64,000 bases of DNA from Flavobacteriales bacterium (GTDB taxonomy: Bacteria > Bacteroidota > Bacteroidia > Flavobacteriales > Flavobacteriaceae). Below, piece by piece: positions 39,691-50,350 of this stretch (the first letter of the stretch is position 1; each line of letters opens with the position of its first letter). Below the pieces are notes generated by a model. The model was given only the letters and a program-made list of their open reading frames with translations, made no database searches and was not told the origin of the DNA. A program made the translations under genes and the position numbers. Location: positions 1 to 64,000 of the forward strand of contig JAHENA010000006.1 in the NCBI GenBank assembly GCA_024643405.1, written 5' to 3'.

Positions 39691-39749
39691 CTTTTTGTCG
39701 TTTTATTCATTTTTTGTTTTATATTTATACTGTTCTAAATCTGAAACTT

Positions 39750-40013
39750 ATGGAAAAAGCTACTAAAAAGACCTCATTCCTTCCAAATGTCTACTGCAAT
39801 GTCTTTGGTCATGATTTTGAGGTAACCAGAAAAGTAACCTATTACGTTAAAGAATATACTTGTACGCGTTGTAAAAAAGAGCTGACCACAAATGGTAACG
39901 GACAGCTCATTGAACTAACTCCAAAATTTAAAGAAATAAATGCCATTTTAGAGCGAATTCACAACGTTAGAATTGAACGTTCAAAGGAAAAATTAATCAC
40001 TTCATCGATTTAA
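39750..40013 (+). CDS. Small CxxC protein, copy 1 of a tandem pair
   Basis: This protein has 87 residues from the ATG at 39750 (MEKATKKTSF); a longer frame upstream is unlikely because it lies in the AT-rich leader. The core reads YCNVFGHDFEVTRKVTYYVKEY, a CxxC (CTRCKKEL), TTNGNGQLIELTPKFKEIN and a charged helix. Two Cys plus upstream Cys/His could hold one zinc ion, in the style of small prophage-type DUF1660 proteins, but that resemblance is tentative. Function unknown. The adjacent gene is a clear duplicate. Confidence 0.75.
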   Translation: MEKATKKTSFLPNVYCNVFGHDFEVTRKVTYYVKEYTCTRCKKELTTNGNGQLIELTPKFKEINAILERIHNVRIERSKEKLITSSI

Positions 40014-40094
40014 CAAAAACATGTTAAAATCATAAAAAACGTTTTCATACCTTAACAGTCTCTCACTAATTAATTAAGGCAAAACATTTTTTTG

Positions 40095-40343
40095 ATGAAA
40101 CATCTTCAGTGCAAGGTCTTTGGTCATGACTTTAAAGTTACCCGAAAGGTGACCTATCATGTAAAAGAATATACCTGTAAAAATTGCAGTAAGCAATTAA
40201 CTACCAATGGCAATGGCCATTTAATTGAACTTTCTCCTAAGTTTAAAGAAATAAACGACGTTTTAGAACGTATTCATGAAAAGCGAAACAAAAAATTAAT
40301 GGAGAAAAACCCCTTTAAAAACTTATTAGTTTTTAAGCATTAA
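40095..40343 (+). CDS. Small CxxC protein, copy 2 of a tandem pair
   Basis: This protein has 82 residues from the ATG at 40095 (MKHLQCKVFGHDF). It is about 70 percent identical by eye to the preceding protein over the 60-residue core, keeping FGHDF, TRKVTY, VKEYTC, the CxxC (CKNC), TTNGNG and LSPKFKEIN, while the N-terminus is shorter and the C-terminus differs (KKLMEKNPFKNLLVFKH). The copy arose by local duplication. Its end overlaps the convergent thiL gene by 11 bases. Function unknown. Confidence 0.72.
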   Translation: MKHLQCKVFGHDFKVTRKVTYHVKEYTCKNCSKQLTTNGNGHLIELSPKFKEINDVLERIHEKRNKKLMEKNPFKNLLVFKH

Positions 40344-41379
40344 AATTTTTCCATCCTTGTGCTTTTATAGGAATTTTAGTTTCTGCTCTTGTAACTAAAT
40401 GTATTCCTGACTCTTTTTCTTTGATAAAACCAATGACCGTCAAACTAGGATTTGCTTTTATTTTAGGGTAATCCTCTTGTGAAATAGTCATTAACAACTC
40501 ATAATCTTCGCCTCCATTTAAGGCAACTGTTGTACTATCAATATTAAATTCCTCACAAGTAGAAATAACCACCGGATCTAATGGTATTTTATCTTCAAAT
40601 AAATCGCAGCCTACTCCACTTTGTTTACAAATATGCATAATTTCAGAAGACAAGCCATCACTAATATCAATCATGGCCGTAGGCTTAACATTTAAATCCT
40701 TTAATAATTTAACAATATCTTTTCTCGCCTCGGGTTTTAATTGACGCTCTATAATATAACTATAAGGCTCCAAATCTGGCTGACTGTTCGGGTTTACTTT
40801 ATAAACCTCCTTCTCTCTTTCTAAAACTTGTAACCCTAAATAGGCCCCTCCTAAATCACCCGAAACGACAAGCAAGTCGTTTGGTTTAGCACCATGTCTG
40901 TAAACTTCATTGTTGGCATCAATAGTTCCAATAGCAGTAATTGAAATTAATAACCCCGTTGTAGATGAGGTCGTATCGCCTCCAACAACATCAATATTAT
41001 AAATAGAAGCAGCCGTCTCAATTCCGGCATAAAGTTCTTCTAAAGCTTCCAAAGGAAATCTGTTTGACACTGCTATAGATATGGTAATCTGAGTTGGGGT
41101 CGCATTCATAGCACAAACATCAGATAAATTAACAACCACTGATTTATAGCCTAAATGTTTTAAAGGCATATAACTCAAATCAAAATGAACACCTTCTACT
41201 AATAAATCTGTAGTCACAACAATTTTGTTGGCTTTAAAATCCAAAACAGCAGCATCATCCCCAACACCTTTTATAGTGGACTCATGATTAATTTTAAAAT
41301 TCTTAGTCAAATGATCTATTAATCCAAATTCTCCTAAATCACTTAATTCAGTCCGTTGTCTATTTTTATCTTCTATCAT
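40333..41379 (-). CDS. thiL: Thiamine-monophosphate kinase
   Basis: ThiL phosphorylates thiamine monophosphate to the active cofactor TPP. The 348-residue PurM-fold protein has GDDAAVLDF (metal-binding Asp pair), TTDLLVEGVHFDLSYM, VVVNLSDVCAMNA, GGDTTSS, VVSGDLGGAYLGL, TAMIDISDGLSSEI and NGGEDYELLM, all ThiL signatures. It stands alone and no TPP riboswitch was seen in its 184-base upstream region. It is the final step feeding the ligand of the riboswitch at 1.9 kb. Confidence 0.95.
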   Translation of the reverse strand: MIEDKNRQRTELSDLGEFGLIDHLTKNFKINHESTIKGVGDDAAVLDFKANKIVVTTDLLVEGVHFDLSYMPLKHLGYKSVVVNLSDVCAMNATPTQITISIAVSNRFPLEALEELYAGIETAASIYNIDVVGGDTTSSTTGLLISITAIGTIDANNEVYRHGAKPNDLLVVSGDLGGAYLGLQVLEREKEVYKVNPNSQPDLEPYSYIIERQLKPEARKDIVKLLKDLNVKPTAMIDISDGLSSEIMHICKQSGVGCDLFEDKIPLDPVVISTCEEFNIDSTTVALNGGEDYELLMTISQEDYPKIKANPSLTVIGFIKEKESGIHLVTRAETKIPIKAQGWKNFNA

Positions 41380-41519: not shown

Positions 41520-41540
41520 AAACTATGATTGCCATAGTTT
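41520..41540. promoter_or_regulatory. Perfect short palindrome, possible operator of the MbnP/MbnH-type operon
   Basis: AAACTATG and CATAGTTT flank a five-base centre, 23 bases before the ATG of the first gene of the operon. The dyad size and position fit a repressor or activator site. The regulator is not identified. Confidence 0.45.
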
Positions 41541-41563
41541 TATAAAGTAAATTCCAAAAATAT

Positions 41564-43051
41564 ATGAGAAATTTATTCAAATCTTGCTTTTTAAAATCCT
41601 CCAAATACTATTCTTTGCTCCTTTTCCTTTGTTTTTTTGTAGTATCATTTCAAAATTGTTCCGATGAACCTGTTTCAACTTTGCCAATTTCAGACAGCGA
41701 TAATGATGGCATAGAAGATAGCCTAGATAATTGTGCGTTTATATCAAACCCAAATCAAGAAGATTCCGATAATGATGGTATTGGAGACGTTTGCGAACTG
41801 GATTCTGACAATGACGGCATTATTGACGACTATGACAATTGCCGTTTTATTTCAAACCCCAACCAAGAAGATGACGATAATGATGGGTTTGGTAATGTTT
41901 GTGATAATAGCGATTCTACAGTAGCTCTCGCCTATTGTGAAAATGGATTTGCTGATATTTTCCCCTGTAACGACTATGATTTAATGGCTTGGATACCTTT
42001 AAGTACATTTGGAGCTACTGCAGGCAATGATTGTTGGGGATGGACAGATTCTACAACTGGAAAAGAATATGCATTGATGGGGACCAATTCCAATACTTCC
42101 TTTGTAGACATAACTGACACTGAAAACCCAATTTATTTAGGAAAACTGCCAACAGCTTCAGTAAACAGTTCTTGGCGTGATATTAAAATTTATAATAATT
42201 ACGCTTTTATAATTGCCGATAATGCCGGAAATCATGGGATGCAAGTATTTAATTTAACTCGTTTACGCAACGTATCCAATCCTCCTGAAACCTTTAATTC
42301 AGATGGCAATTATTCTGGTTTTGGAAGTGCACATAATATCGTAATTAATGAATCCACTGGATACGCCTATATTGTTGGCACCACAAAAAGTGGCCCTTTT
42401 ACCGGCACCACTTTATTCATAAATATTCAAGATCCATCAAATCCCATCTATGAAGGCAATTTCCAACTTGGCGGCTACTCTCATGACGCACAAGTTGTAA
42501 TTTATAATGGACCAGATACCGACTATACTGGTCGTGAAATTTTTATAGGAAGTAATGAAAACACGGTAATGATTGCAGACGTTACCGATAAAGCCAACCC
42601 AACAATTATTCGCACAGTAAATTACAGTAATACAGGATATACCCATCAAGGTTGGTTAACGGCAGACATGAAATATTTCATACTTGGCGATGAAGTTGAT
42701 GAACTTTCTTTCGGCAATAATACCAGAACCGTAATTTTTGATTTTACAGATTTGGACAATCCCTCTTATAGTTTTGATTATTTAGGACCTACGCTTGCTA
42801 TAGATCATAATGGATATGTAAATAATAACACTTTTTATCTAGCCAATTATAGAGCTGGAGTCAGAATCATTGATATCACACAAATAGGAAATAAATCAAT
42901 GACTGAAATTGGTTATTTTGATTCGTATCCGGAAAACAACAATGCCGCCTTTGATGGCGTCTGGAGCGTGTTTCCATTTTTTAAAAGCGGCAATATTATC
43001 ATTAGTGATATTAATAGAGGCCTATTTGTGATAAGAAAAAGCGGCTCTTAA
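41564..43051 (+). CDS. Choice-of-anchor B family lipoprotein with thrombospondin type 3 calcium repeats
   Basis: This 495-residue predicted lipoprotein has a signal ending VSFQNC, then SDEPV, an acidic motif typical of surface lipoproteins. Residues about 45-115 hold thrombospondin type 3 repeats (DSDNDGIEDSLDNC, DSDNDGIGDVC, DSDNDGIIDDYDNC), which bind calcium. The rest is the choice-of-anchor B domain built of LVIVD-like propeller repeats (YALMGTNSNTSFVDITD, AYIVGTTKSG, VRIIDI). It is the first gene of a four-gene run with gaps or overlaps of about 10 bases or less. A surface scaffold or adhesin role is likely. Confidence 0.88.
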   Translation: MRNLFKSCFLKSSKYYSLLLFLCFFVVSFQNCSDEPVSTLPISDSDNDGIEDSLDNCAFISNPNQEDSDNDGIGDVCELDSDNDGIIDDYDNCRFISNPNQEDDDNDGFGNVCDNSDSTVALAYCENGFADIFPCNDYDLMAWIPLSTFGATAGNDCWGWTDSTTGKEYALMGTNSNTSFVDITDTENPIYLGKLPTASVNSSWRDIKIYNNYAFIIADNAGNHGMQVFNLTRLRNVSNPPETFNSDGNYSGFGSAHNIVINESTGYAYIVGTTKSGPFTGTTLFINIQDPSNPIYEGNFQLGGYSHDAQVVIYNGPDTDYTGREIFIGSNENTVMIADVTDKANPTIIRTVNYSNTGYTHQGWLTADMKYFILGDEVDELSFGNNTRTVIFDFTDLDNPSYSFDYLGPTLAIDHNGYVNNNTFYLANYRAGVRIIDITQIGNKSMTEIGYFDSYPENNNAAFDGVWSVFPFFKSGNIIISDINRGLFVIRKSGS

Positions 43052-43061
43052 TTAAAAGATT

Positions 43062-44399
43062 ATGTTTCTTAAAATTATAAAAGTGCTCACAGTTAAACTC
43101 TTCATTCTTTCATTGCTATGGAGTTGTTCGTCAAACGATGAAACGACGGCAAGCAATACAATAGAAATTGATTTTATTAAAACTTTGGGGGGCTCAAATA
43201 ATGAAAGTGCAAAATCTATAACCACAACGTCTGATGGAGGCTATGCTATATTGGGCTATACTCAAAGTTTGGATGGCGATGTTATTAATAAGGCCAATAA
43301 TTCTTATGATTACTGGTTAATTAAGTTTGACCGAAATGATCATTTGCAATGGCAAAAAACGTATGGTGGCTCAGGTGATGATCGCGGTAATGATGTCATT
43401 CAAACAAATGACGGTGGTTATGCCATTTTAGGATATAGTCAAAGTAATGATGGTGACGTTAGTGAAAACTTTGGCTTTAGTGATTATTGGATATCCAAAT
43501 TAGATGCTTCCGGTAATATCCTTTGGAAAAAATCTTTTGGTTATGCCGGTACTGACACAGGTATTTCAATCATAGAAACAAATGATCTTGGTTTCCTTTT
43601 AACAGGAGTTCTTGATGTTACCGCTTCAGATGGCAATGGAAATAGTAAAAACACCAAAATTAATCATGCCGGAGGAGATTATTGGGTTATAAAATTAAAC
43701 ACAACAGGTGAGAAACAATGGAGTAAATATTATGGAGGAACTTTTACCGATACACCTTATGATGTCATTGAAACTGAAGATAATGGCTATATCATTGTAG
43801 GTTCTTCAGATAGTGCAGATGTTGATATTTCCAATAACCAAGGAACTTATGATTTCTGGGTAATCAAAATTACCAGCACAGGAGCTCTGGTTTGGGAAAA
43901 ATCATATGGTGGCTCAGAAATTGATGAAGCTTTTGGTATTGCAAAATCCTCTGATGGCAATTTTGTTATGGTGGGCGATACCAGAAGTAATGATAAAGAC
44001 GTCTTACAAAATAATGGCGCTTCAGATTTATGGGTTATAAAAATTAATCCTTCAGGAAATTTGCTCTGGGAAAAGACGTATGGAGGAACAAGTTTTGACG
44101 CAGGTCGTTCCATTTCAAATACATTTGACGGTGGGTTTTTAATATCAGGAAGTTCCAGAAGTTTGGATGGCGATTTAACCACCAATCAAGGACAAAATGA
44201 CGTTTGGGTTTTAAAAATAGATGCTGGAGGAAACCTCCTTTGGCAAAAGTCTTTTGGTGGGAGCAATATTGATTTTGCTTACGATGCTTTAGAACTTCAG
44301 GACAAAAGCTTAATTGTTATTGGTGAATCAAGTAGTTCGGATAAAGATATTATAGAAAACAAGGGGTTTACAGATTTACTAATTGCTAAACTTAAATAA
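43062..44399 (+). CDS. Repeat lipoprotein with seven propeller-like repeats
   Basis: This 445-residue predicted lipoprotein (signal LLWSC, Cys22, then SSNDE) has seven units of about 55-65 residues. Each carries a Gly-Gly turn and an Asp (TLGGSNNES, TYGGSGDDRG, SFGYAGTDTG, YYGGTFTDTP, SYGGSEIDEA, TYGGTSFDAG, SFGGSNIDFA), then DGGYxIxGxSxSxDGDV and DYWxIKLDxxGNLxW. Seven such units would close a seven-bladed beta-propeller. It overlaps the MbnP-family start by one base, so translation is coupled. Biochemical role unknown. Confidence 0.82.
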   Translation: MFLKIIKVLTVKLFILSLLWSCSSNDETTASNTIEIDFIKTLGGSNNESAKSITTTSDGGYAILGYTQSLDGDVINKANNSYDYWLIKFDRNDHLQWQKTYGGSGDDRGNDVIQTNDGGYAILGYSQSNDGDVSENFGFSDYWISKLDASGNILWKKSFGYAGTDTGISIIETNDLGFLLTGVLDVTASDGNGNSKNTKINHAGGDYWVIKLNTTGEKQWSKYYGGTFTDTPYDVIETEDNGYIIVGSSDSADVDISNNQGTYDFWVIKITSTGALVWEKSYGGSEIDEAFGIAKSSDGNFVMVGDTRSNDKDVLQNNGASDLWVIKINPSGNLLWEKTYGGTSFDAGRSISNTFDGGFLISGSSRSLDGDLTTNQGQNDVWVLKIDAGGNLLWQKSFGGSNIDFAYDALELQDKSLIVIGESSSSDKDIIENKGFTDLLIAKLK

Positions 44400-45169
44400 T
44401 GAAAAAATCAATCATAGTTTACATATTAATTATAATCATAATTGCATGTCAATCAGATAATCAAATAACTAATTCTGAAGCAGCCATAAGTTTTAACTTC
44501 AGCCATAATTGGGATGGCACATTAGTTACTAATACAGACTTTAACAAAATACAATATACTAATGCCCATGGTGAATCTTTAAGTATTGAAAAACTGAGAT
44601 ACCTGATTTCAAAAATAACCTTTCACAAATCTAATGGAGAAAAAATAGTTTTAGAAGGATACAACCTAGTAGATGTCACCAATGAATCTAATTTGTCATT
44701 TTCTTCAAACACACTTATTCCAACAGGCAATTACAGTAACGTTTCCTTTCTTTTTGGATTTAATAATGAAGCCAATATAAGTGGTGCCTATCCCGATTTA
44801 AATTCAGCCTCATGGAATGTTCCAGAAATGTTAGGTGGTGGCTATCACTACATGCAATTAGAAGGGAAGTACATAAATACATTAAGTGAAGAGATTGGAT
44901 ATGCCTGTCATGCTATTAGAGCCGTAGATAATTCAGACCCTAATCATTTAGTTTTTCAAGATACCTTCATTGAAGTTAATTTAGGTTCTGTGACTATTTC
45001 CAATGACAGCTCATTTAATATTTCAATGAATATTGCTGAATGGTTTAAAAATCCAAACCTTTGGGATTTAAATACTTTATATAACGCATTAATGCCCAAT
45101 TTTAATGCACAAGTGAAGCTATATGAAAATGGTCAAGACGTGTTTAGTTTAGAATCTGTTAGCCCATAA
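44399..45169 (+). CDS. MbnP-family lipoprotein (putative copper-binding)
   Basis: This 256-residue predicted lipoprotein has its acylated Cys at residue 17 (IIIIACQSD). The family opening strand FNFSHNWDGT is followed by TNAHGESLSIEKLRYLISKITF, VTNESNLSF, FLFGFNNEANISG, GGGYHYMQLEGKY and the YACHAIRA strand. In Methylosinus, MbnP is a periplasmic protein in which MbnH oxidises a Trp to kynurenine, creating a copper site. Here the next gene is a di-heme enzyme one base away, matching that pairing outside methanobactin producers. Trp38 and several later Trp are candidates for modification. Confidence 0.82.
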   Translation: MKKSIIVYILIIIIIACQSDNQITNSEAAISFNFSHNWDGTLVTNTDFNKIQYTNAHGESLSIEKLRYLISKITFHKSNGEKIVLEGYNLVDVTNESNLSFSSNTLIPTGNYSNVSFLFGFNNEANISGAYPDLNSASWNVPEMLGGGYHYMQLEGKYINTLSEEIGYACHAIRAVDNSDPNHLVFQDTFIEVNLGSVTISNDSSFNISMNIAEWFKNPNLWDLNTLYNALMPNFNAQVKLYENGQDVFSLESVSP

Positions 45170-45170
45170 A

Positions 45171-46241
45171 ATGATTAAAAAAAAGGTTTTACATAGTCTT
45201 CTTTTATTCCTTATAGTTTCATGCTCTAATGAAACTGTTGAGCAGTTCATTTATAAGGCAACACCAGCGCCATTAAATATTCCGCTCCTTTTTGAACAAA
45301 ACATTTTGGCCCCAATAATTCCTGTTAATAATCCTCAAACAGTTGAAGGCATTGCTTTAGGAAAAAAATTGTTTTTTGATCCTATTTTGTCAGCCAATAA
45401 TACACAGGCCTGTGCAGATTGCCACACACCGGAAAACGCCTTTACAGATACCAATCGTTTTAGTGAAGGTATTGACGGAATTTTGGGAAACAGAAACTCG
45501 ATGCCTTTATTTAATTTAGCATGGAATTATGATGAAAAATTCTTTTGGGATGGACGGGTTTTTAGTTTAGAACATCAGGCTTTTGAACCTGTCACTAATC
45601 CAATAGAAATGAAAAACACTTGGCAACAGGTCATTGAAAAATTGGAAACAAGTGCAGATTATCCCAAATTATTTAGTGAAGCCTTTGGAACTTCATCAAT
45701 AGACTCAACCTTAGTCACCAAAGCGATTGCACAATTTGAAAGAACTTTGATTTCTGCCAGTTCCAAATTTGATAAATATCTTTTGGGAGAAGGGACATTA
45801 ACAGCACAAGAGCTGAATGGGTTCAATGTTTTTATGGACGAAACAAAAGGTGATTGTTTTCATTGTCATGGTAATGCGAATAATCCATTATGGACAGATA
45901 ATATATTTCATAACAACGGCTTGGATGCTGTGATAACCGATTTGGGATTAGGAAAAGTAACAGGTGATCCGGCCGACAATGGTAAGTTTAAATCACCTTC
46001 ATTACGCAATCTGGCCTTTACTGCTCCTTATATGCATGATGGCAGATTTACAACCCTTGAAGAAGTCATCAATCATTATAGTGAAGGATTACAAAACTCC
46101 CCTACTATTGATCCATTAATGAAAAAGGTTTCACAAGGCGGCGTCCATTTAACTGAGCAAGAAAAAATAGATTTAAAAGCCTTCTTATTATCGCTTAGTG
46201 ATGAAGTCTTTGTTACTAATCCTGCCTTCTTAAACCAATAA
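45171..46241 (+). CDS. Di-heme MbnH/MauG-like cytochrome c peroxidase family lipoprotein
   Basis: This 356-residue predicted lipoprotein (Cys18 in IVSCSNE) has two c-type heme motifs, CADCH at residues 81-85 and CFHCH at 229-233. It keeps the family stretches MPLFNLAW, KFFWDGRVFSLEHQAFEP, SPSLRNLAFTAPYMHDGRF and LEEVINHYSEG. By alignment from memory, the axial Met of classical di-heme peroxidases falls on Tyr303, as in MauG and unlike peroxidases. That favours a protein-modifying oxidase rather than plain peroxide removal. It is the last gene of the operon and its partner MbnP-like gene ends one base before it. Confidence 0.85.
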   Translation: MIKKKVLHSLLLFLIVSCSNETVEQFIYKATPAPLNIPLLFEQNILAPIIPVNNPQTVEGIALGKKLFFDPILSANNTQACADCHTPENAFTDTNRFSEGIDGILGNRNSMPLFNLAWNYDEKFFWDGRVFSLEHQAFEPVTNPIEMKNTWQQVIEKLETSADYPKLFSEAFGTSSIDSTLVTKAIAQFERTLISASSKFDKYLLGEGTLTAQELNGFNVFMDETKGDCFHCHGNANNPLWTDNIFHNNGLDAVITDLGLGKVTGDPADNGKFKSPSLRNLAFTAPYMHDGRFTTLEEVINHYSEGLQNSPTIDPLMKKVSQGGVHLTEQEKIDLKAFLLSLSDEVFVTNPAFLNQ

Positions 46242-46306: not shown

Positions 46307-46314
46307 TATATTTG
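46307..46314 (+). promoter_or_regulatory. Predicted -7 promoter box for the suf genes
   Basis: TATATTTG matches TAnnTTTG exactly. It lies 76 bases before the sufA ATG at 46391 and overlaps the start of the longer sufA frame, which argues for the shorter protein. Confidence 0.55.
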
Positions 46315-46390
46315 TGGCTTATTTAGAAACCGTCTTAATAAAGACAGTTTACAAATAATTGAAAAACAAAATAAAACTTTTTTAATAATT

Positions 46391-46720
46391 ATGATTAAAG
46401 TTTCTGAAACTGCTAAGAAAAAAGTCATCGAACTTATGCAAGAAGACGGTTATAATCCATCAACGGATTACGTGCGTGTTGGTGTAAAAAGCGGTGGTTG
46501 TTCTGGTTTATCATACGACTTAAAGTTTGACAAAGAAAATCAAGAAGGCGATAAAGTTTTTGTTGATAATGAGGTGCAAATTATAGTTGATAAAAAAAGC
46601 TTTTTATACCTAATTGGGACGACACTTGAATATTCAGGAGGGCTTAATGGAACTGGGTTTGTATTTAATAACCCCAACGCAAATAGAACTTGTGGCTGCG
46701 GTGAATCTTTTTCACTTTAA
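46391..46720 (+). CDS. sufA: A-type iron-sulfur carrier (HesB/IscA/SufA)
   Basis: This carrier holds and passes iron-sulfur clusters to target proteins. From ATG 46391 (MIKVSETAKKKVIELM) it has 109 residues with the three cluster Cys, VGVKSGGCSGLSYDLKF and CGCGESFSL near the end, and the FVFNNPNA strand before them. A longer in-frame start at 46304 is rejected because it lies in the promoter box. It leads the suf operon, 24 bases before sufB. Confidence 0.94.
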   Translation: MIKVSETAKKKVIELMQEDGYNPSTDYVRVGVKSGGCSGLSYDLKFDKENQEGDKVFVDNEVQIIVDKKSFLYLIGTTLEYSGGLNGTGFVFNNPNANRTCGCGESFSL

Positions 46721-46744
46721 ACCATCCATAGAAGAACAAAGACA

Positions 46745-48193
46745 ATGAACAAATATACTGAAGACGATTTAAGAGAAGAACTTAAAACCAAGGAATATGA
46801 ATACGGATTTTATACTGATATAGAATCTGATACGTTCCCTAATGGTTTAAATGAAGACATTGTTAGAGCTATTTCTCTTAAAAAAGAAGAGCCTCAATGG
46901 ATGACTGATTGGCGACTTGAAGCGTTTAAAGCTTGGAAAGAAATGACTGAGCCAGAATGGGCAAATGTGCATTATCAAAAACCAGATTTTCAGGCTATTT
47001 CTTACTATTCTGCACCAAACAGCAAGCCTAAATACAACAGCCTCGATGAAGTAGACCCGGAATTATTAGCCACTTTTGCAAAGCTGGGCATATCAATTGA
47101 TGAACAAAAAAAGTTGAGTAATGTTGCTATGGATGTCGTTGTTGATTCCGTTTCAGTTGCTACCACTTTTAAAAAGACTTTAGGAGAAAAAGGCATTATT
47201 TTTATGAGTATTTCTGAAGCTATTAAAGAGCATCCGGAATTAGTTAAAAAATACATTGGGACCGTAGTCCCACAAAAAGATAATTTTTATGCAGCCCTTA
47301 ATAGTGCCGTATTTAGTGACGGGTCTTTTTGTTATATCCCCAAAGGGGTTCGTTGCCCAATGGAACTTTCTACTTATTTCAGAATTAATCAGGCAGGAAC
47401 AGGTCAGTTTGAAAGAACGCTGGTGATTGCAGATGAAGGGAGTTATGTGAGTTACCTTGAGGGTTGTACGGCTCCAAGTAGAGACGAGAACCAGTTGCAC
47501 GCTGCCGTAGTTGAGTTGATTGCCCTTAATGATGCTGAAATAAAATATTCAACCGTTCAAAACTGGTATCCAGGAAATGCGGAAGGCAAAGGAGGTGTTT
47601 ACAATTTTGTAACTAAGCGTGGCCTTTGTGAAACCAATGCAAAAATTTCTTGGACTCAAGTAGAAACTGGTAGTGCGGTAACATGGAAATATCCAAGTTG
47701 TGTATTGAAAGGAGATAATTCTATTGGAGAATTTTATTCAATTGCGGTGACTAATAACCATCAACAAGCTGATACCGGAACCAAGATGATTCATTTAGGT
47801 AAAAACACCAAATCAACCATCATTTCAAAAGGCATCTCTGCAGGAAAATCTCAAAATAGTTATCGGGGGTTAGTAAAAATAAGTCCGAATGCAGATAATG
47901 CCCGTAATTTTTCACAATGTGACAGTTTACTAATGGGTAATGAATGTGGTGCGCATACCTTTCCGTATATTGAAGCAAAAAATAAAACAGCCAGAATTGA
48001 ACACGAAGCTACCACTAGTAAAATTGGTGAAGACCAAATTTTTTATTGTAACCAACGTGGTATTGATACAGAAAAAGCTATTGCCTTAATTGTGAATGGT
48101 TTTAGTAAGGATGTCCTTAATAAGCTACCCATGGAATTTGCTGTGGAGGCACAAAAACTTCTTGAGATAAGCTTAGAAGGATCTGTAGGATAA
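46745..48193 (+). CDS. sufB: Fe-S cluster assembly scaffold SufB
   Basis: SufB builds the nascent cluster with SufC and SufD. The 482-residue protein has the family landmarks [42 protein letters not shown], the [16 protein letters not shown]-type region (here [15 protein letters not shown]), [20 protein letters not shown] and [21 protein letters not shown]. The parallel beta-helix pattern runs through the core. It is followed by sufC after about 40 bases. Confidence 0.97.
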
Positions 48194-48234
48194 TAAAATA
48201 ATAAATACAAATAGTCGCGATTTTAAATAATAAT

Positions 48235-48987
48235 ATGTTAAAAATTAAGAATTTACACGCAAGCGTTGAAGACAAATCCATTTTAAAAGGTATTAATCTT
48301 GAAATAAAACCTGGAGAAGTTCATGCCATCATGGGGCCAAACGGTTCTGGAAAGAGTACGCTGGCATCCGTTATTGCAGGAAAAGAAGATTACGAGGTAA
48401 CTGATGGAGAGGTTAGTTTTGAAGGAGAAGTTATTAATGACATGGCAGCTGAAGAGCGCGCCCATAAAGGCATTTTTCTATCATTTCAATATCCAGTTGA
48501 AATCCCAGGAGTTTCAGTAACAAATTTCATGAAAACAGCCATCAACGAAACGCGTAAAGCGAAAGGACTCGAAGACATGCCTGCTAAAGACATGTTAAAG
48601 TTAATTAGAGAAAAAGCGGAGTTATTAGAAATAGACAGAAAATTTTTATCTCGTTCATTAAACGAAGGCTTTTCGGGAGGTGAGAAAAAACGTAATGAAA
48701 TTTTTCAGATGGCTATGTTAGAACCAAAATTAGCCATATTAGATGAAACGGATTCAGGTCTTGATATTGATGCACTTAGAATTGTTGCTAATGGGGTAAA
48801 TAAACTTAAAAGTAAGAATAATGCGGTATTAGTTATTACGCATTACCAGCGATTATTAGATTATATAGTTCCTGATTTTGTTCATGTATTGTACAAAGGA
48901 AGAATTGTAAAGTCTGGAACCAAAGAATTAGCACATGAGCTTGAAGAAAAAGGTTACGACTGGATTAAAGAAGAAGTTAACGCATAA
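48235..48987 (+). CDS. sufC: Fe-S cluster assembly ATPase SufC
   Basis: This cytosolic ABC-type ATPase drives the SufBCD scaffold. The 250 residues include Walker [17 protein letters not shown], the Q-loop [13 protein letters not shown], the signature [15 protein letters not shown] and Walker [17 protein letters not shown], with the family-specific [10 protein letters not shown]. It has no membrane partner, as expected. It sits between sufB and sufD. Confidence 0.97.
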
Positions 48988-49036
48988 TTAATTTTCAGTT
49001 AGAGCGGCAAAACCACTTTGAACTAACAATTAAAAA

Positions 49037-50350
49037 ATGGATTTAAAAGAAAAATTAATATCATCCTTTTGGGCATTTGAAAACCATCAAGACGAAGATG
49101 CTTATTTACATAAAATAAGAACCGAAGCCATCAAAACATTTGAAGACAATGGCTTTCCTTCAAAAAAAGAAGAAGCCTGGAAATACACTTCCTTAAACAG
49201 TGTTTTAAAAAATGATTTTAGTGTGTTCCCAAAACAGGAAAATGCCATTGAATATAATGATGTTAAGAAATATTTTATTCATGACATCGACACTTATAAA
49301 ATTGTGTTTATTGACGGAAAATATTCTTCACACCTCTCACAAACAACACATGATGGTATGGACATTTGTTTAATGTCATCGGCATTATCAAAACCTAAAT
49401 ACCGAATTTTAATTGAGAATTATTTTAATAAAATTGCTAAGAACGACAGTTTAACGTCATTAAATACGGCGTTTTCAAGTGAAGGCGCTTACATTCATAT
49501 TCCTAAAAATAAAATGGTTGCAAAACCAATTCAAATCATCCATTTTTCCACAGGAAATGAATCAGCAATTATGTTACAACCGCGTAATTTAATTGTAGTT
49601 GACGAAAATTCGCATTTACAAATTATTGAAAGACATCAAAGCTTAACTGATAACCCTGTTTTAACCAATAGCGTTACAGAGTTATTTGTCAACAAGCGCG
49701 CTATTGTTGATTATTATAAAGTGCAAAATGATGATTCAAACGCCTCGTTAATTGACAACTCATATATCAATCAAAAACAAGAAAGTATATGTTCTGTTCA
49801 TACGTTTTCATTTGGCGGGAAATTAACTCGAAATAATCTTAATTTCTATCAACATGGAGAACGTATAAACTCCATTTTAAAAGGCATCACTATTATTGGT
49901 GATAAGCAGCATGTTGACCATAATACCTTAGTGCATCATACAGAACCAAATTGTGAAAGTCATCAGGATTACAAAGGTGTTTTTGGCGAAAATTCTACAG
50001 GTGTTTTCAACGGAAAAATAATTGTCAATAAAGAAGCTCAAAAAACCAATGCCTTTCAATCTAATAAAAACATTTTAATTAGCGATAAAGCAACTATTAA
50101 CACTAAACCACAATTAGAAATTTTTGCTGATGATGTGAAGTGCTCACATGGTTGTACCATAGGTCAATTAGACGAAAGCGCGCTGTTTTATTTACGTTCA
50201 AGAGGGATTCCTGAAAAAGAAGCGAAGGCATTACTTATGTATGCGTTTAGTAATAACGTGTTAAGCTCCGTGCGAATTCCTGAAATTAAACAGCGTATCA
50301 ATAAAATTATAGCTAATAAATTAGGTGTTGATATTGGTTTTGATTTATAA
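49037..50350 (+). CDS. sufD: Fe-S cluster assembly protein SufD
   Basis: SufD is the partner of SufB in the SufBC2D complex. The 437 residues start with a helical domain (KKEEAWKYTSLNSVLKNDF), then a right-handed beta-helix with YIHIPKNKMVAKPIQI and VDHNTLVHHTEPNCESHQDYKGVF split over the core, and the C-terminal signature KCSHGCTIGQLDESALFYL plus RSRGIPEKEAKALLMYAF. It is followed by a palindromic intergenic element, then sufS. Confidence 0.96.
   Translation: MDLKEKLISSFWAFENHQDEDAYLHKIRTEAIKTFEDNGFPSKKEEAWKYTSLNSVLKNDFSVFPKQENAIEYNDVKKYFIHDIDTYKIVFIDGKYSSHLSQTTHDGMDICLMSSALSKPKYRILIENYFNKIAKNDSLTSLNTAFSSEGAYIHIPKNKMVAKPIQIIHFSTGNESAIMLQPRNLIVVDENSHLQIIERHQSLTDNPVLTNSVTELFVNKRAIVDYYKVQNDDSNASLIDNSYINQKQESICSVHTFSFGGKLTRNNLNFYQHGERINSILKGITIIGDKQHVDHNTLVHHTEPNCESHQDYKGVFGENSTGVFNGKIIVNKEAQKTNAFQSNKNILISDKATINTKPQLEIFADDVKCSHGCTIGQLDESALFYLRSRGIPEKEAKALLMYAFSNNVLSSVRIPEIKQRINKIIANKLGVDIGFDL

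Follow-up and report, generated by a model that had tools for sequence, protein, structure and literature searches.

The window analysed here, the first 64,000 nucleotides of contig JAHENA010000006.1 from a Flavobacteriales bacterium (assembly GCA_024643405.1), carries four consecutive genes on one strand (Table 1). They encode a choice-of-anchor B family protein (CAB), a lipoprotein with SBBP-like repeats, an MbnP-like lipoprotein and a di-haem enzyme of the MbnH/MauG type. As far as can be judged from sequence, the locus is a divergent PF20243 MbnP together with an MbnH/MauG-type partner within a flavobacterial cluster of propeller lipoproteins, and the four products appear to form an envelope lipoprotein module, presumably exposed at the surface. 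The MbnP and MbnH families themselves are already known; the novelty lies in a divergent MbnP with a rebuilt site in a propeller cluster. Our tentative reading, to which we give a probability of about 0.45, is that this MbnP binds Cu(I) in the envelope at a remodelled site of two His, is oxidised by MbnH at W139 where this residue is present and works with the propeller pair. If true, flavobacteria would have an envelope copper system that does without methanobactin.

Conservation of the cluster

A scan of GTDB species genomes with the window MbnP gave 461 relatives, and among the best 80 of these 77 named records showed the full order CAB-SBBP-MbnP-MbnH; the remaining three (L085, L108, L119) end at contig ends. 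Most intergenic gaps in these 80 records fell between -8 and +25 bases, the extremes being -47 and +234. In a band of 24 rows from the same family (E 1.5e-30 to 2e-28, near the score of the window MbnP itself) the order was found on one strand in 23 cases, namely 20/20 of those first fetched and 3/4 of the remainder, and the sole miss (G185/L240) had a WxW-like MbnP with MbnH alone. The preliminary description of the locus had named a lack of co-occurrence of the four families in other genomes as one outcome that would refute it, and the association proved far stronger than its author could know. Among the open-access papers searched, none was recognisable as a description of this gene order.

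Within the window the genes follow each other with a gap of 10 bases, an overlap of 1 base and a gap of 1 base, in agreement with the spacing of at most 10 bases first reported. Starts of open reading frames were set mechanically, so individual gap values may be off. The claim that all four products carry lipoprotein signals seems, from the sequence, to hold for three of them: SBBP (LWSC), MbnP (IIAC) and MbnH (IVSC) have ordinary lipoboxes, but the cysteine of CAB (FQNC) is atypical. A simple lipobox pattern occurs in 68/113 CAB, 88/101 SBBP, 92/101 MbnP and 47/100 MbnH relatives.

The four genes are not equally constant. PF20243 is present in 212 of 395 related genomes, and the window's genome has one match each to the MbnP and the MbnH model. 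In the same-family set of 239 genomes (G000-G238) a full-length SBBP (at least 386 bits; partial matches below 300 bits in G085, G089 and G149 were left out) was found in 121. CAB was present in all 121 and without SBBP in 8 more. MbnP occurred somewhere in 82 of the SBBP genomes and was missing from 39, and 30 genomes had MbnP without a full SBBP; the odds ratio for the association of MbnP with SBBP is 6.2, a statistic that ignores phylogeny. Counts given here and below are loci unless genomes are named, and the two sources overlap (95 distinct rows among 101 for MbnP, 142 among 150 for SBBP). Of the 150 SBBP loci, 112 carried a GGGYH-type MbnP and 4 a WxW-type one, and the other 34 had neither MbnP nor MbnH; the last figure is no natural frequency, because these loci were fetched on purpose from the 39 MbnP-less genomes. 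CAB and SBBP thus form a constant core to which MbnP-MbnH is an optional added unit, and the whole lies between genes that we take by their sequence to be thiL and suf. On the SBBP tree the split between loci with and without MbnP is a single change. Conversely, GGGYH-type MbnP and MbnH occur without CAB and SBBP in L162-L164, which belong to another family of the phylum.

What the site looks like when empty can be seen in congeners of the window's genome. In five of them thiL is followed directly by sufA with no cluster member between, and the sixth is cut by a contig end; none of the six has SBBP or MbnP and one has a CAB-family match. Homology with the five restarts just past the MbnH stop codon and runs for about 100-150 bases through the suf leader (alignment scores 133-169, against shuffled maxima of 28-33), the thiL side being near the shuffled level. 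With all four genes missing and homology resuming immediately after MbnH, the cluster evidently comes and goes as a block.

Table 1. Positions in the window of the four genes, of residues discussed in the text and of the usual neighbours
Feature	Position	Strand	Support
CAB, choice-of-anchor B family protein (LVIVD-type beta-propeller) with N-terminal TSP3 linker	41564..43051	+	TIGR04312 536.8 bits
SBBP-like seven-repeat lipoprotein, probably a propeller	43062..44399	+	NF047494 44.3 bits, weak
MbnP-like lipoprotein, GGGYH subfamily	44399..45169	+	PF20243 94.8 bits; AlphaFold pLDDT 92.2; 7l6g Z 16.5
MbnH/MauG-type di-haem c-type enzyme	45171..46241	+	TIGR04039 263.5 bits; best PDB match 6e1c
W139 codon of MbnP, aligning best with the first W of WxW, the Trp that forms kynurenine	44813..44815	+	hhalign, MAFFT
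H150 codon of MbnP, candidate metal ligand, the invariant His in LGGGYH	44846..44848	+	101/101
H171 codon of MbnP, invariant His common to WxW-type MbnP, candidate metal ligand	44909..44911	+	101/101
First haem c site of MbnH, CADCH (C81-C84-H85)	45411..45425	+	100/100 relatives
Second haem c site of MbnH, CFHCH (C229-C232-H233)	45855..45869	+	100/100 relatives
Y303 of MbnH, aligned with the Tyr of 6e1c at the expected axial Tyr position	46077..46079	+	100/100 relatives
thiL-type gene, usual left neighbour	40333..41379	-	98/102 GGGYH loci with room
suf-type genes sufA, sufB, sufC, sufD, usual right neighbours	46391..50350	+	101/104 GGGYH loci with room

The MbnP-MbnH pair and the propeller proteins

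The identities proposed earlier for the MbnP-like and MbnH-like proteins are borne out. The former passes the PF20243 cut-off of 27 bits and has no match among the NCBIfam families at E 0.01; PMC3621798 names TIGR04039 and TIGR04052 as a pair of models. Sequence matching to Methylosinus trichosporium MbnP (7l6g) is weak: the protein alone gave 0 matches in the PDB at E 1, and a profile built from 13 WxW relatives found 7l6g at no better than E 0.022. It is the comparison of folds that settles the identity. The AlphaFold model of residues 18-256 aligns with 7l6g over 211 residues (rmsd 3.5), the next match having Z 8.3.

In canonical MbnP, according to a 2021 paper, MbnH reportedly oxidises the first Trp of a WxW motif to kynurenine. 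This motif is absent from the window protein, which we therefore file as a divergent PF20243 subfamily rather than as canonical MbnP. In its place the clade has W139-N-V141-P-x-M-L-G-G-G-Y-H150. Position 141 is Val in 98 of 101 sequences and Trp in 3, and position 139 is Trp in 85 and Phe in 16 (79 and 16 on distinct rows), L127 from Winogradskyella haliclonae being one of those with Phe. H150, H171, Y149 and W222 are invariant in all 101, W215 is kept in 100 and W38 in 98. In alignments by hhalign (probability 99.9) and by MAFFT alike, W139 falls on the first Trp of WxW, V141 on the second and H171 on the His of the WxW type. In the 13 WxW-type sequences M148, W150, W152 and H179 are invariant, although the Met is not universal (Leu in L145, L153 and L170). 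H179 is the equivalent of H171 and its region aligns with HVG of 7l6g. The equivalent of H150 is not His in the aligned WxW-type sequences; by this alignment H150 is a newcomer of the GGGYH subfamily. H150 and H171 appear to be the firmest ligand candidates. Given so rebuilt a metal site, the known chemistry of the MbnP family cannot simply be assumed.

Early branches (L181-L184, L166, L032, L035, L048) keep W-x-W-P, and the outgroups L162-L165 read M-x-W-P. Set beside the window motif (44813-44848), L181-L184 and L162-L165 give a graded natural series that begins with M-x-W-P and W-x-W-P and ends with W-x-V-P and F-x-V-P, the stretch that follows being GGGYH (GGGTERYH in L165).

The MbnH-like protein matches PF03150 with 199 bits, and its best PDB match is 6e1c ('Di-heme enzyme', E 1.1e-53), which we take to be MbnH of M. 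trichosporium. MauG-type enzymes have an axial Tyr at the position where ordinary peroxidases have Met, and the window protein combines two CxxCH motifs with a Tyr at the expected axial position. W126 is likewise invariant in 100/100 relatives. Residue 247 (window 45909-45911) marks two types of enzyme, being His in 48/48 rows with a GGGYH partner and Arg in 47/56 rows with a WxW partner.

Two types of pair can indeed be told apart on quick trees, which were built from 117 of 170 MbnP rows, 101 of 151 SBBP rows and 105 of 168 MbnH rows. GGGYH-type (59 rows) and WxW-type MbnP (57 rows) are split by one branch with support 90; on the GGGYH side lie also L170, a WxW protein on a long branch, and L165 of class 'other'. 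On the MbnH tree these two groups recur (48 vs 56 rows) with one change, the separating branch having a support of only 23. A profile of the window-clade MbnH gave 388-713 bits with GGGYH partners and 248-398 bits with WxW partners, the ranges meeting at L162-L164 and L170. MbnP and MbnH therefore seem to travel together, as expected of an enzyme and its substrate. At four loci (L174, L175, L179, L204) a WxW-type pair occupies the same slot after SBBP, and one module thus seems to be served by either type; these loci represent 3 changes on the SBBP tree, of which starred branches force only 1. The distant locus L170 (4375-8171) has in one row the genes for MbnP and MbnH, another MbnH-like gene and a gene with a weak CAB-like match (24 bits).

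CAB matches TIGR04312 along positions 2-364 of 364, above a cut-off of 100 bits, and an LVIVD match (E 1 or better) in 41 of the 48 CAB rows scanned likewise points to the choice-of-anchor B/LVIVD propellers. We know of no function for this family. The AlphaFold model of residues 121-495 (pLDDT 93.3) is a propeller. Its matches among the 50 PDB entries listed (Z 29.7-31.1) are mostly WD40 proteins and thus name no function. A relationship to the haloalkylphosphorus hydrolase 5hrm was considered and dropped: its Z of 30.7 ties with WD40 propellers, and the profile match covers only short repeats at E 0.1. Selenium-binding protein/methanethiol oxidase, which are His-lined propeller metal enzymes, were absent among the 50 CAB structure matches listed, from which we draw no conclusion. 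Five His at blade-like spacing (H224, H257, H307, H361, H415) are each kept in 110-113 of 113 sequences, and equally in loci without MbnP; the pattern suggests a candidate metal site in the central funnel. The protein had been described as a calcium-repeat choice-of-anchor B protein. The family stands, and the front part does contain two TSP_3 stretches, but TSP_3 is found in only 23 of the 48 rows (the window's own row was trimmed ahead of its TSP3 repeats), which rules these calcium repeats out as a core part. Several genomes (L036, L040, L050, L179 and others) have two to four tandem copies of CAB before SBBP, with SBBP, MbnP and MbnH single.

SBBP shares its repeat type with the LipL53 family of SBBP-repeat lipoproteins (NF047494) but scores far under the cut-off of 400 bits. 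Its seven repeats, counted correctly from the start, are about 58 residues long, with a spaced D-x-W at W85, W143, W208, W266, W324 and W382 and a seventh (D438) without Trp; the protein is probably a propeller. Twelve Trp, two per repeat in six of the seven, are conserved in 91-101 of 101 sequences and largely kept in loci without MbnP. Residue 308 is Arg in 116/116 loci with MbnP and in 0/34 without. We rejected it as a docking residue, since the split is single on the SBBP tree and shared ancestry explains the pattern equally well.

A putative copper site and the possible role of W139

Among the closest known systems is the MbnP/MbnH pair of M. trichosporium (7l6g; 6e1c). The window pair shares with it the MbnP fold, an adjacent di-haem partner of the same type and one conserved His region. 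It differs in the missing WxW, the LGGGYH motif with its new His, the fixed linkage to CAB and SBBP, and the lack of an MbnB gene. In line with the preliminary description, which had supposed methanobactin genes to be missing, a search of the window's genome, which is 95.5% complete, for an MbnB-type gene (PF05114) gave 0 matches, compared with matches in 2 of 14 control genomes. MauG, too, is a di-haem enzyme acting on a Trp of a partner protein; its matches to the window enzyme (E 5.5e-31 to 1.1e-28 among the chains listed) score below 6e1c. The MauG partner is methylamine dehydrogenase (PMC3912023). The same paper reports that CorA binds Cu(I) by two His and kynurenine (and water) and that its gene is co-transcribed with that of a BCCP-type partner. 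CorA/CorB and MopE/SACCP of methanotrophs, surface Cu(I) proteins with a BCCP/MauG-like partner gene, thus offer the very ligand set that we propose for the window MbnP. In sequence MbnP is not markedly similar to MopE or CorA, as stated in PMC3621798, and neither name occurs among the 50 MbnP structure matches listed, with no direct alignment run.

On the reading we favour, MbnH would oxidise MbnP, the likeliest target in the window protein being W139, and the resulting kynurenine would assist H150 and H171 in binding a single Cu(I) outside the cytoplasm. Such a site would be closer to that of CorA/MopE (two His and kynurenine) than to that of WxW-type MbnP. The copper would probably be exchanged with, or presented by, the propeller pair. 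To our knowledge, protein-bound kynurenine within a copper site is known from very few proteins.

Several observations weigh against this proposal. The score against TIGR04039 falls short of the equivalog cut-off of 362.85 bits (263.7 bits in the genome search). Nothing ties the locus to copper and no shared operator was found; nearby copper genes were not sought. The proposal presumes that W139, H150 and H171 lie close together in the folded protein. The 39 of 121 SBBP genomes that lack MbnP imply that the propeller pair has a use of its own. The M-x-W-P outgroups mean that it could be V141, and not W139, that truly corresponds to the oxidised Trp, in which case the window protein has lost it. 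Finally, W139 has changed to Phe beside an intact MbnH at least 3 times on an MbnP tree built without these columns and at least 5 times on the MbnH tree (all 101 MbnP and 100 MbnH rows used), so kynurenine cannot be essential at residue 139 throughout the subfamily. In these relatives either the two His would suffice for the site with no kynurenine, or the target of MbnH would be a different aromatic residue; no compensating Trp was found elsewhere in the Phe139 proteins. The earlier view that the methanotroph chemistry operates unchanged is consequently only partly supported: W139 is kept and aligns with the first Trp, but WxW is gone and Phe replaces W139 in 16 of 101 relatives. Kynurenine at W139 of the window protein is possible on this alignment, and the four proteins may capture or sense copper as a complex.

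The strongest rival, which we nevertheless consider rather unlikely, is a site free of kynurenine: H150 would have replaced the modified Trp as a ligand, MbnP would bind metal by its invariant His, and MbnH would act elsewhere, for instance on W222, W215, W38 or the Trp-rich SBBP. That the invariant H150 is a newcomer fits this well, as does the better conservation of W222, W215 and W38 than of the dispensable W139. The Phe139 group has gained no new Trp, the outgroup motif allows V141 as the lost kynurenine position, and SBBP offers its twelve Trp. On the other side, both alignment methods keep W139 on the first Trp. Moreover, the Trp of SBBP and the His of CAB are largely kept in the 34 loci that lack MbnH, so these residues are not there for the enzyme.

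The motif series WxW, W-x-W-P, W-x-V-P and F-x-V-P, all beside MbnH in one bacterial family, where two subtypes share a position in one cluster, allows a direct test of whether MbnH is there to make kynurenine or has some wider purpose. The conserved cluster also supplies partner proteins to look for.

Neighbouring genes and the remaining alternatives

The thiL and suf genes flank the cluster whatever its content. At the WxW loci thiL lies to the left in 3/4 and suf to the right in 3/4 (L175 shows neither), and at the 34 MbnP-less loci thiL is present in 30 and suf in 32. The suf genes start within 300 bases of the module end at 27/34 MbnP-less, 64/112 GGGYH and 3/4 WxW loci. Since suf also flanks loci without MbnP, the place of an MbnP-MbnH pair, in loci that have one, is between SBBP and suf.

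This position might suggest that MbnH is an ordinary peroxidase which removes H2O2 from the envelope, for example to protect the neighbouring iron-sulphur assembly, with MbnP as electron donor or docking partner and no copper involved. The enzyme is close to bacterial cytochrome c peroxidases and its usual place is beside suf. We regard this as improbable, because the best match is 6e1c and a Tyr stands where ordinary peroxidases have Met (the alignment covers the 6e1c Tyr only), because suf also follows at 32 of the 34 loci without MbnH, and because suf has a leader of its own. In that leader a palindrome, TTTAGAAACCGTCTTAA (window 46322-46338), stands just after a promoter-like box, TATATTTG (46307-46314), before sufA. 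With at most 1 mismatch the palindrome precedes sufA in 75/139 loci, against 5/139 shuffles, and is probably the operator of a suf regulator. Before CAB it occurs in 5/142 loci, against 3 in shuffles, and this lack of enrichment led us to reject shared regulation of the cluster with suf. The palindrome is thus proper to the suf leader, and adjacency to suf may be merely positional.

Still less probable is that a stable thiL-suf slot gathers unrelated envelope genes by history only, as the 39 CAB-SBBP genomes without MbnP, the 30 MbnP genomes without a full SBBP and the free-standing MbnP-MbnH pairs of L162-L164 and L240 might suggest, for this leaves unexplained the short gaps kept across genera, the two different pair types in the same position, the absence as a block in congeners and the association of MbnP with SBBP (phylogeny ignored). 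We give equally little credence to a novel type of four-protein envelope redox-metal complex in which MbnP would bind Cu(I) by two His, MbnH would oxidise another MbnP residue or feed electrons or radicals into the Trp-rich propeller, and the five-His propeller of CAB would be the metal enzyme supplied.

The perfect dyad (8-5-8) noted earlier upstream of CAB is present at 41520-41540, but it is close to chance expectation. Some 8-bp dyad was found in 13/95 upstream regions, compared with 9% of mononucleotide shuffles, and the half-site of the window recurs in only 6/95; we have therefore rejected it as an operator. On the far side of thiL, two tandem, similar small open reading frames with paired Cys (YTCxxC; window 39714-40013 and 40092-40343) adjoin this gene in 5/5 informative congeners.

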